DNA of 47,032 bases from Gammaproteobacteria bacterium (lineage in GTDB: Bacteria; Pseudomonadota; Gammaproteobacteria; GCA-001735895): positions 1 through 47,032 of the forward strand of contig JAAESG010000100.1 of assembly GCA_024229615.1 (NCBI GenBank), given 5' to 3'. The translations under genes were made by a program, and so were the position numbers. Every line of letters starts with the position of its first letter. Positions within the stretch are counted from its first letter, which is position 1. Shown here piece by piece: positions 3,448 through 41,618 of the stretch. Below the pieces are notes generated by a model, which saw only the letters and a list, made by a program, of their open reading frames with translations, was not told the DNA's origin and ran no database searches.

Positions 3448-4359
3448 CTAGCCGTCGGGTTGTTCGACGTAATCGACATTTTCCGCAGGTGACTTCCCTT
3501 CGATCGAGTAGCGATTGCCATGCAGCACGCTAATTTCGACGCGACGGTTCTTGGCTCGATTTTCCCAGCTGTCGTTCGGGACGATGGGCTCGTTGTCGGC
3601 TAGAGCCCTGATCTCCATGCGTTCCGGATCAATATCGCCCTGGCGGATGAAAAAGTGGACCACACTGGCTGCACGCGCCGCGGATAAATCCCAGTTGGAA
3701 CGGAAGCGGCTGGTTTCTATCGGAATATCGTCGGTATGCCCGGCGATAACAAAGTGCCCGTCGCGTTGATTGAGGACCTCGGCGATCAGTTTCAGAATCG
3801 GCAGAAAATCCTGCTTCAGTTTGGCGTGGCCTGAACCGAAGGAGCCGCGTTCGCGGATACGGATCAGTACGCGGTCATTGTAGGCTTCAACTTCGAGCAG
3901 GCCGTCACCGATAGCCGCAGCCAGTTCGTCCTGCAATTCCTCGGCTTCTTCCTGGGCCTCTCGCTGGGCTTTCTGCTGCGCTATCGCTTCGGCCTCGGCT
4001 TCACCTACGCCACCGTCGTTGCGTGACTTCGAATCGTTGTAGTCGAGATTGGTTTTGGTGTCGTCGATGGTTTGTTCGCGCATAATTTCGAGCGGGGTCA
4101 CCTCGGTCGGGGTTCCCGGGCTGTATTGCTTGGCGATAACACTGGTGCCTTTGGGAATTTCAGTTGCTTTGACGATGCGTTGCACGCCAAAGGCCAGTTT
4201 CATCGCACCGGCGACCTGCTTGTACTTGAGTACATCCATTTCCGCAAATGACAGTAACAATACGAAAAAGCACATCAACAGAGCCATCATATCGGCAAAG
4301 GTTGCGAGCCAGGGAGGTAATCCCTCCTCGCAGGGAGGGCAATCGCATTCTTCACTCAT
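3448..4359 (-). CDS. pomB: Flagellar stator protein PomB/MotB
   Basis: 303 aa. A single transmembrane helix lies at about 20-42 and carries the ion-binding aspartate D23 in TFADMMALLMCFF. A low-complexity E/A/Q-rich linker (about 120-150) follows, then an OmpA-like peptidoglycan-binding domain (about 160-285) with GHTDDIPI and the NWDLSAARA motif. The short Cys-rich N-terminus (CDCPPCEEGLPPW) and the ADMMALLMCFF segment resemble sodium-type PomB more than proton-type MotB. It pairs with pomA, which starts upstream on the same strand with a 66-base gap. Sodium specificity is inferred from sequence resemblance only. Confidence 0.9.
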   Translation of the reverse strand: MSEECDCPPCEEGLPPWLATFADMMALLMCFFVLLLSFAEMDVLKYKQVAGAMKLAFGVQRIVKATEIPKGTSVIAKQYSPGTPTEVTPLEIMREQTIDDTKTNLDYNDSKSRNDGGVGEAEAEAIAQQKAQREAQEEAEELQDELAAAIGDGLLEVEAYNDRVLIRIRERGSFGSGHAKLKQDFLPILKLIAEVLNQRDGHFVIAGHTDDIPIETSRFRSNWDLSAARAASVVHFFIRQGDIDPERMEIRALADNEPIVPNDSWENRAKNRRVEISVLHGNRYSIEGKSPAENVDYVEQPDG

Positions 4360-32169: not shown

Positions 32170-32655
32170 CTAACTCGGCTTGCGCGTACTGATTTCAGTC
32201 GTGGGGAAATAACGTTGCAGTACTGCTGCGAGTTCCTTCTTAACGATTGGCTTGGCGATGTAATCATTCATGCCGGCTTCGATACAGGCGCTTCGATCAC
32301 TTTGCTGGGTATTCACGGTTATCGCCGCTATGGGCGTATTCCTGGTCTCGAGATCCATTTCGCAGATTATTCGAGTGGCTTCAAATCTATCCATTTCAGG
32401 CATCTGGATATCCTGGTTCTCATGGTCATGCGGGGTTAGCGATACGGATGCGGCGATGCGCGCCAATTCTCGATAGTTATCCAGTTGCGAGGTCTGATAG
32501 TTGTTGTAAGAAGGGAAAACGATAATCAGCTCGATCAGCACTATGGCGATGAAAACGACCAGGCACAAACGGCGTGCCAGGCGAAAGCGCAGCATCTGGC
32601 TCAGCATTTTAAGCCAGTCTGCAATGTTGCGACGGCGTTGAGATACAATGACCAT
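32170..32655 (-). pseudogene. Hybrid histidine kinase remnant: N-terminus joined in frame to half a receiver domain
   Basis: 161 aa. Residues 1-80 look like the start of a membrane sensor kinase (basic region, helix at about 29-48, periplasmic stub with YRELARIAASVSLT). From residue 81 the sequence is the second half of a response-regulator receiver domain: DIQMPEMDRFEATR with the phospho-acceptor D82, NTPIAAITVN and DYIAKPI with K135. HAMP, HisKA, HATPase and the first receiver half are all missing, and the junction (about 32410-32416) is seamless. Best explained by an in-frame deletion of some 1.5-2 kb. Confidence 0.7.
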
Positions 32656-39924: not shown

Positions 39925-40308
39925 ATGGAAGTTGTCATCAATGCTGATTTTGGTATGGCGCTGGGGCCGAATACGAGTGAAACCTTGCTCGATTTCTCCG
40001 ACTCTGCGGCGAACAAACTGAAGGCGTTGCAAGACGAAGAATCAAACCCGAAGCTGATGCTTCGAGTCTCGGTCTACGGCGGTGGATGTTCGGGTTTCCA
40101 GTATACTTTTTCGCTCGACGAAGAAGTCAAGCCTACTGATAAGAAAGTGGAAAAGAACGGCGTAACCCTGCTCATCGATCAAATGAGCTATCAATACCTG
40201 GCTGGCTCCGAGGTTGATTATAGCGAGGGTCTCGAGGGTGCCATGTTTGTTGTCAATAATCCAAATGCAACCTCGACCTGCGGTTGTGGCGCTTCATTTT
40301 CGGTTTAG
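39925..40308 (+). CDS. erpA: Iron-sulfur cluster insertion protein ErpA
   Basis: 127 aa, A-type Fe-S carrier. The three ligand cysteines are in [11 protein letters not shown] and [11 protein letters not shown]-terminally extended by about 10 residues compared with E. coli ErpA. ErpA passes [4Fe-4S] clusters to essential targets such as IspG/H. Its stop overlaps by 3 bases the stop of the convergent HEAT-repeat gene. The 52-base gap upstream is too short to assign a promoter with confidence. Confidence 0.93.
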
Positions 40309-41080
40309 TAGATCGAAATCGAGGCAAGCTCCTCAACTATCGCTTCGGCATTCGCGCGTATCGTTTGATCGGGGTCATAGTGCGCCTGTAGCAGGTATGA
40401 AATAGCGTTTTCTCCACCGATTTCTGCCATCGCATTGACCGCATGGCGTCTGACTACGATATCCTGTTCTGATAGTAATCCGGCCAACAAGTGAACAGCC
40501 TGCTCCTGTTGTAACCTGGCAAGTGCTTCGATAGCTGCAATCCTGACCTCCCTTTCCCGGTCGAAGAGATAAGGCTCGATACTGTTAACCGCCAAAGGGC
40601 TCATAGCAGCCCCGAGTGCTTCAACAGCCGCGATTCTGATTTGCGCAACAGGATCGTCCAGAGCCGCATTCAGCACGGCCAGTCTTGCCTGGTGGCTCGT
40701 ATCTGCCAGAGCGGCCAGTCGAGTGACCGGGTCAGCGTCAAACAACAATAGTTGAAGCTGACCGATTGCCATCTCCGCTGGCAGATTTTCCAGCTGAATA
40801 ATTTCTTCGAGCGCCGGGTAGAGATCAAGGAGAACCCTGGCTGCGTTTACGGGTACGGGGTTCGCCTGGATGCGTGCCGTCTGTTGCGACTCGATGGGTG
40901 GCTCAACCACGCTCGCACCTGCCTGATTTTGGGTGTGCGTGGTTGTTTAAAAGCTGTCTGAGTGTTCGACGAATGGCTTTGTGTCTCGATGTCGAACTGG
41001 TGGGCGGCAGGCATCAATAGCAGTATCAGGCATAGCGCAAAGACGATAGACATGAACGTCGAAGTTTTTGTCAGATTCAT
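40305..41080 (-). pseudogene. Exported HEAT-repeat protein, apparent frameshift after the signal peptide
   Basis: ATG 41080 opens a signal peptide (MNLTKTSTFMSIVFALCLIL, then LLMPAAHQF) that runs into SSNTQTAFK and then nonsense. A different frame, entered by one extra base at the TTTTAAA run (40946-40952), continues as TTTHTQNQAGASVVEPP and leads into four or five HEAT-like repeats ending at 40305 (for example IRIAAVEALGAAMSPLA, VRIAAIEALARLQQEQA, VRRHAVNAMAEIGGENA). The HEAT part alone could start at GTG 40910 (201 aa), but then without export. A real one-base deletion or a sequencing error would both explain it. Confidence 0.65.
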
Positions 41081-41102: not shown

Positions 41103-41127
41103 GGAGCCTCTCACTCGGAGAGGTTCC
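41103..41127 (-). terminator. Hairpin between the TGA-split gene and the HEAT gene
   Basis: GGAGCCTCTC (41103-41112) pairs with GAGAGGTTCC (41118-41127) over 10 bp with one G-T pair and a 5-base loop. It lies 21 bases after the stop of the upstream gene on the minus strand. No T-tract follows, so terminator function is a guess from position. Confidence 0.45.
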
Positions 41128-41147: not shown

Positions 41148-41618
41148 CTACTCGCCGTCATCGGCGGCGGGATGACCACCGGTTTGCACATTATCCGGAG
41201 CCGCTGGAATAACGTGGGACAGGTAAACCTCGCTTTCCCTTTCTTCACCGTTCAGGGTCATTCCCTCGATGTCATATTCCCCCTCCGGGAAACGTCTGAA
41301 AAATGTTTCTGGATCGAGTTCGTCGAAAGTAGGTTCCGCACTCTTGAAAAACAGTTCGGTCAATCCCTGGCGGCGCAGGCGGCCTCGAACCCATACATTC
41401 AGCATCTTGCGATCACGGGGATTCGCGGTTTCGAGGTATTTTCACTCGTCACCATCAATCTTGCCATGAATTCCGAGATCACCATCGGTGTCATTCAGCT
41501 CTAAGAACAGTCTGGCTTCATCAAATGGCACTTCGTTATTATCGTCATTGGCAAGCGCCAGCGCGGATGTACTCAGCACTGTTGCCAAAACGAGAATGGG
41601 TATCTTTAGGTATTTCAT
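41148..41618 (-). pseudogene. Secreted protein gene split by an in-frame TGA
   Basis: ATG 41618 gives a signal peptide (MKYLKIPILVLATVLSTSAL), then LELNDTDGDLGIHGKIDGDE up to codon 58. Codon 59 is TGA (41442-41444). The same frame then continues without break as KYLETANPRDRKMLNVWVR, RQGLTELFFKSAEPTFDEL and PETFFRRFPEGEYDIEGMTL to the stop at 41148. I recall related proteins with GDEWK at this place, so the TGA probably replaces TGG (Trp). ATG 41405 could restart translation for an 85-aa C-terminal piece, but without a signal peptide. Confidence 0.72.

Follow-up and report, generated by a model that had tools for sequence, protein, structure and literature searches.

Does an in-frame TGA in an otherwise coherent gene mark a recoded codon, an error in the sequence or a gene in decay? 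The question is raised by a 47,032-nucleotide stretch of a gammaproteobacterial contig (JAAESG010000100.1), hereafter the window, in which the minus strand at 41148–41618 reads as a single frame from a Met/ATG to a terminal TAG after 156 codons. In translation its sole internal stop is a TGA at codon 59 (41442–41444, read 41444–41442). An earlier note, made from the letters of the window, had held that this TGA stands where tryptophan is expected, that coherent, family-like protein lies on both sides of it, and that a TGG-to-TGA change is its simplest cause. We call the gene X, and we favour, with a probability of about 0.92, the reading that X and its HEAT-repeat neighbour, a dispensable pair of exported genes that is lost recurrently, have recently become pseudogenes.

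Codon 59 of gene X

Homologues of X were gathered from the genomes of relatives, where 10 of 57 gave a match (the window's own counted), and from genome contigs, which contributed 27 loci. In alignment, relatives with up to 75% identity continue through the stop, matching from residue 1 as far as about residue 154. By this alignment, each half is coherent, and the match far exceeds what chance would give. Codon 59 is TGG at all 34 loci that cover it, the window's own excluded. Five of these are repeats in which the same genome was reached via two tools, which leaves 29 distinct homologous places, all with TGG. At two others among the 37 loci, L010 and L037, both from one genome, the match begins at residue 70, a deletion of their own having removed the region of codon 59. 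Since every covering locus carries TGG, tryptophan is the expected residue, and the alignment supports its being ancestral, a single TGG-to-TGA change sufficing to produce the stop. Among the genomes examined, the TGA itself is private to that of the window. The orthologue alignment that the earlier note had called for bears out both its observation and its inference of tryptophan.

Another possibility is that the short frame represents a pair of separate genes, or that it is the ancestral form and the long form of the relatives is derived. A downstream ATG does open a frame of 85 aa at 41148–41405. The orthologues examined contradict this, as the nearest relatives by sequence and the relatives with the gene at the same site have a long single frame. 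The downstream frame, moreover, is devoid of a signal peptide and starts within a conserved domain, and we give this reading next to no credence.

A missing domain and a split neighbour

What is left of X (41148–41618, minus strand) comprises the signal peptide and N-terminal β-sandwich domain of a two-domain exported protein. Its 156 residues compare with 237–325 in the 26 frames of alignment A2, about half the length of the complete relatives. This alignment holds 26 of the 31 X frames; L004 (same genome as L016), L018 (near-identical to L017) and the broken L028, L035 and L037 were left out, and the frame of L011 leaves its contig end at 284 aa. From the start of X to the start of the HEAT gene, the window measures 538 bp against 959 bp in L012, 1015 bp in L022, 993 bp in L023 and 1029 bp in L007, making it shorter than these four relatives by 421–491 bp. 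In DNA alignment, the stretch of X between the interdomain linker and the 3′ end is mostly absent from the window. The shortfall in spacing and the missing C-terminal domain place the deletion junction approximately at 41148–41165 (minus strand), its exact point being ambiguous.

For the full-length relative L012, the AlphaFold2 model (mean pLDDT 88.0, pTM 0.82) has strands at residues 34–133 and then from 142 to the end, a pattern that we read as two predicted β-sandwich domains, of which the window retains the first only. By these comparisons, the C-terminal domain of X has been deleted. A whole-genome search of G000, the genome of the window, with a full-length relative returned the remnant only, and no second copy of X or of its missing half. 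The earlier reader, who took the short frame for a complete protein, had missed this deletion; the full protein has two domains, and the frame corresponds to the N-terminal one.

The adjoining HEAT gene, which the same reader had described as frameshifted, is indeed split. Its 5′ part, with the signal peptide, occupies 40847–41080 (minus strand) in one frame, and its 3′ part, with the HEAT repeats (Pfam HEAT_2, 3.4e-18), occupies 40305–40910 (minus strand) in another, placing the frameshift between about 40910 and 40950. In the ten relatives listed, the gene is one unbroken frame of at least 259 aa. A programmed frameshift was considered and rejected: the A-/T-rich stretch near 40950, viewed by eye, showed no in-phase slippery heptamer. 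Between X and the HEAT gene, a hairpin at 41107–41123 (minus strand) aligns with a G+C-rich hairpin of the relatives, as seen in the alignment. The genes flanking the pair are open and conserved in relatives; they include a TIGR04219 outer-membrane protein and, by names read from their sequences, a putative bactofilin, erpA, anmK, an M23 peptidase and tyrS. Elsewhere in the window, at 32170–32655 (minus strand), a 161-aa frame that may be a hybrid histidine kinase with an internal deletion fuses a membrane-segment-like start to the end of a receiver domain of the response-regulator type (positions 48–110 of 111 in Pfam).

Two adjacent exported proteins are thus broken, as had been claimed, X by a nonsense codon and a deletion and its neighbour by a frameshift. 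Local sequencing or assembly errors could in principle account for both breaks while the genes of the organism are intact. The assembly is in draft form (735 contigs), in which a substitution and an indel are possible errors, and the TGA taken singly may be a base error. However, sequence error is disfavoured as the chief cause: X also lacks 421–491 bp, and this deletion, which removes one domain, is no error of base calling. Elsewhere in the genome, the missing half of X was not found, and the pair is decayed or absent in many relatives. We therefore consider errors an improbable source of the two breaks, and the part of the earlier note that hinted at them finds no support as the main cause.

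UGA as a stop codon in this genome

UGA is an ordinary working stop in this genome. TGA terminates 23 of the 42 chosen window genes. These genes (13,101 codons) are free of internal stops, a point that counts against both recoding and sequence error, though weakly, as they were picked as open frames. The gene for RF2, prfB, is present (501 bits, the cut-off being 370) and retains its CTTTGA frameshift site; rpoB is stop-free inside. Among the matches listed in an anticodon-arm pattern search, the one tRNA-Trp found has the anticodon CCA and a 5-bp anticodon stem. For SelB and tRNA-Sec, nothing in the genome scored over the cut-off. There were nine sub-threshold tRNA-Sec matches; ARAGORN assigns the eight that have loci to Ser, Leu, Cys, Gly, Tyr or Trp tRNAs, the ninth being C64. 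A UGA-to-Trp code of the table 4 kind was rejected on the use of TGA, the presence of RF2 and the form of the tRNA-Trp found, and selenocysteine at the TGA was rejected on the SelB and tRNA-Sec searches. Because UGA works as a stop in the genome, recoding is unsupported, and RF2 and the tRNA-Trp found, looked at as the earlier note had proposed, speak against it.

A narrower form of the idea is that X is still functional, its UGA being read as Trp (or Sec) and the protein regulated, or shortened yet working. The frame is open to residue 156 and its distal part is well conserved, and precedents are reported in two studies, one on bacteria in which purifying selection acts on in-frame stops (Belinky et al. 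2021, PMC7918605) and one on a tRNA-Trp(CCA) with a 4-bp stem that is able to read UGA (PMC13092985). Yet the stop is absent from all 29 homologous places, the tRNA-Trp, SelB, tRNA-Sec and RF2 results above run counter to readthrough, and any product would still be without the second domain. We regard functional readthrough as very improbable. The apparent case of UGA read as tryptophan is better settled as gene decay than as recoding.

Probable repeated loss of the pair across the genus and its parallels

Intact orthologues of X and HEAT occur in sister genomes, several of them at the same chromosomal place. Pseudomaricurvus alcaniphilus also has an unbroken X, but no HEAT partner was found at its locus. 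In the genus, the two genes are found together in 12 of 31 genomes, broken copies counted (ten via a search with X, plus G016 and G020, in which a contig end truncates X), and X alone is found in none of the 31. This is consistent with the loss of a shared function, the other cause at which the earlier note had hinted. In seven carriers, the window's genome among them, the pair is flanked by the outer-membrane protein and erpA (G000, G002, G004, G009, G013, G020 and G030), with the arrangement spread over two contigs in G004, X truncated at the contig end in G020 and erpA past the contig end in G030; five carry it at other places (G015, G016, G024, G028 and G029). In 15 genomes, the outer-membrane protein gene and erpA are directly adjacent, with the pair absent between them. 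Three of these have weak HEAT matches elsewhere (28–36% identity), counted here as probable other HEAT proteins. One genome holds a remnant, and G007, G019 and G022 were placed in no class.

The remnant, in G005, is an eroded one of both X and HEAT at the site. At 1842–2509 of L092, short frames between erpA and the outer-membrane protein weakly resemble the N-terminal part of X and the C-terminal part of HEAT, and they would represent an advanced stage of decay at the window's site. In G015 (L037), X has suffered a separate frameshifting deletion, and the ELNDTDGDLGIHG conserved region is gone. Two further broken copies fall outside the 31-genome count: in L028, X has a TAA at codon 4 (4010–4012), in the signal peptide, with a later ATG frame of 303 aa, and in L035 a frameshift lies in the distal part. 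Outside the pair, matches to the TIGR04219-type outer-membrane protein fall in two frames each in L102 (G029) and L097 (G017), which suggests frameshifts in that gene in both genomes.

A four-marker tree, built for 28 of the 31 genomes, places the window with same-site carriers, and empty or remnant relatives lie among them. The clade of the window with G025, G020, G009, G030 and G002 has a support of 72, and that of G004 with G005 and G026 a support of 100. Repeated loss of the pair is the simplest reading of this pattern; that it was gained several times at a single site is less probable.

The sequence that remains of X counts against decay. Apart from Trp59, the window breaks one of 26 otherwise invariant columns (E92K), and it changes three of 45 near-invariant columns (F39L, E65A and E92K); the relatives nearest to it in sequence, L011 and L012, change none and one. 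In the X lineage test, the window has 17 synonymous to 13 nonsynonymous changes and the two relatives 36 to 14 (Fisher p = 0.22); the corresponding test for HEAT gave p = 1.0. Nonsynonymous changes are thus not significantly enriched in the window lineage for either gene. Since the remaining N-terminal domain looks still constrained and the enrichment is not significant, either the decay is recent or the data are too few to give the test power.

Under recent pseudogenisation, the ancestral X would have been an exported protein of two β-sandwich (Ig/FN3-like) domains beside an exported HEAT-repeat protein. A G-to-A transition (TGG to TGA) and a deletion, perhaps through recombination between short GA-rich direct repeats, would be enough to inactivate X. 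Its translation would halt after 58 residues and neither a functional X nor a functional HEAT protein would be made, the pair being presumably dispensable and on its way to loss as in other members of the genus. More tentatively, and at somewhat less than even odds, X and HEAT may belong together as a two-component exported unit that is so far undescribed. It would consist of a two-domain β-sandwich protein with a HEAT-repeat partner, in marine, often host-associated gammaproteobacteria, and would change chromosomal place and be repeatedly lost, with the window catching a loss in progress. With the pair gained, moved or lost across one genus, its intact, broken, eroded and missing states offer a natural series for the study of its function.

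The one mildly new point about the locus is that X is without a Pfam or NCBIfam family, the rest being ordinary in kind. For the window protein and three full-length relatives, no family in either collection scored over the cut-off, the sole family match, MhqD, being sub-threshold (14–16 bits against 325); X likewise gave no PDB sequence match and no match in a plasmid search. With the predicted full-length L012 as query, the best Foldseek match was Vibrio cholerae RbmA (4kkp), with a TM-score of 0.19 by query and 0.23 by target, and the other matches were tandem FN3 or Ig proteins, also with low TM-scores; a function drawn from these matches was rejected. X resembles RbmA, a tandem FnIII protein, in its two β-sandwich domains, but the low TM-score, 15% identity and lack of a PDB sequence match make this a likeness of domain arrangement, not of membership. 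By analogy, a surface or matrix role for X would be a guess.

The tRNA-Trp found here, with its 5-bp stem, differs from the UGA reader reported in PMC13092985, whose stem is of 4 bp. With the stops of Belinky et al. 2021, X shares a single in-frame stop with conserved coding on both sides, but that study (PMC7918605) focuses on stops common to at least two species, whereas the stop in X occurs in one genome and is accompanied by a domain deletion. The closest parallel is with bacterial pseudogenes that combine a nonsense codon and a deletion. As in these, there is a disabling change relative to functional orthologues (TGA at codon 59, TGG in 29 of 29) and more than one independent disabling change (the deleted C-terminal domain and the frameshifted neighbour), together with intact orthologues and a patchy presence in the genus. 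From this class the locus differs in nothing essential, relaxed selection being so far undetectable in the window.
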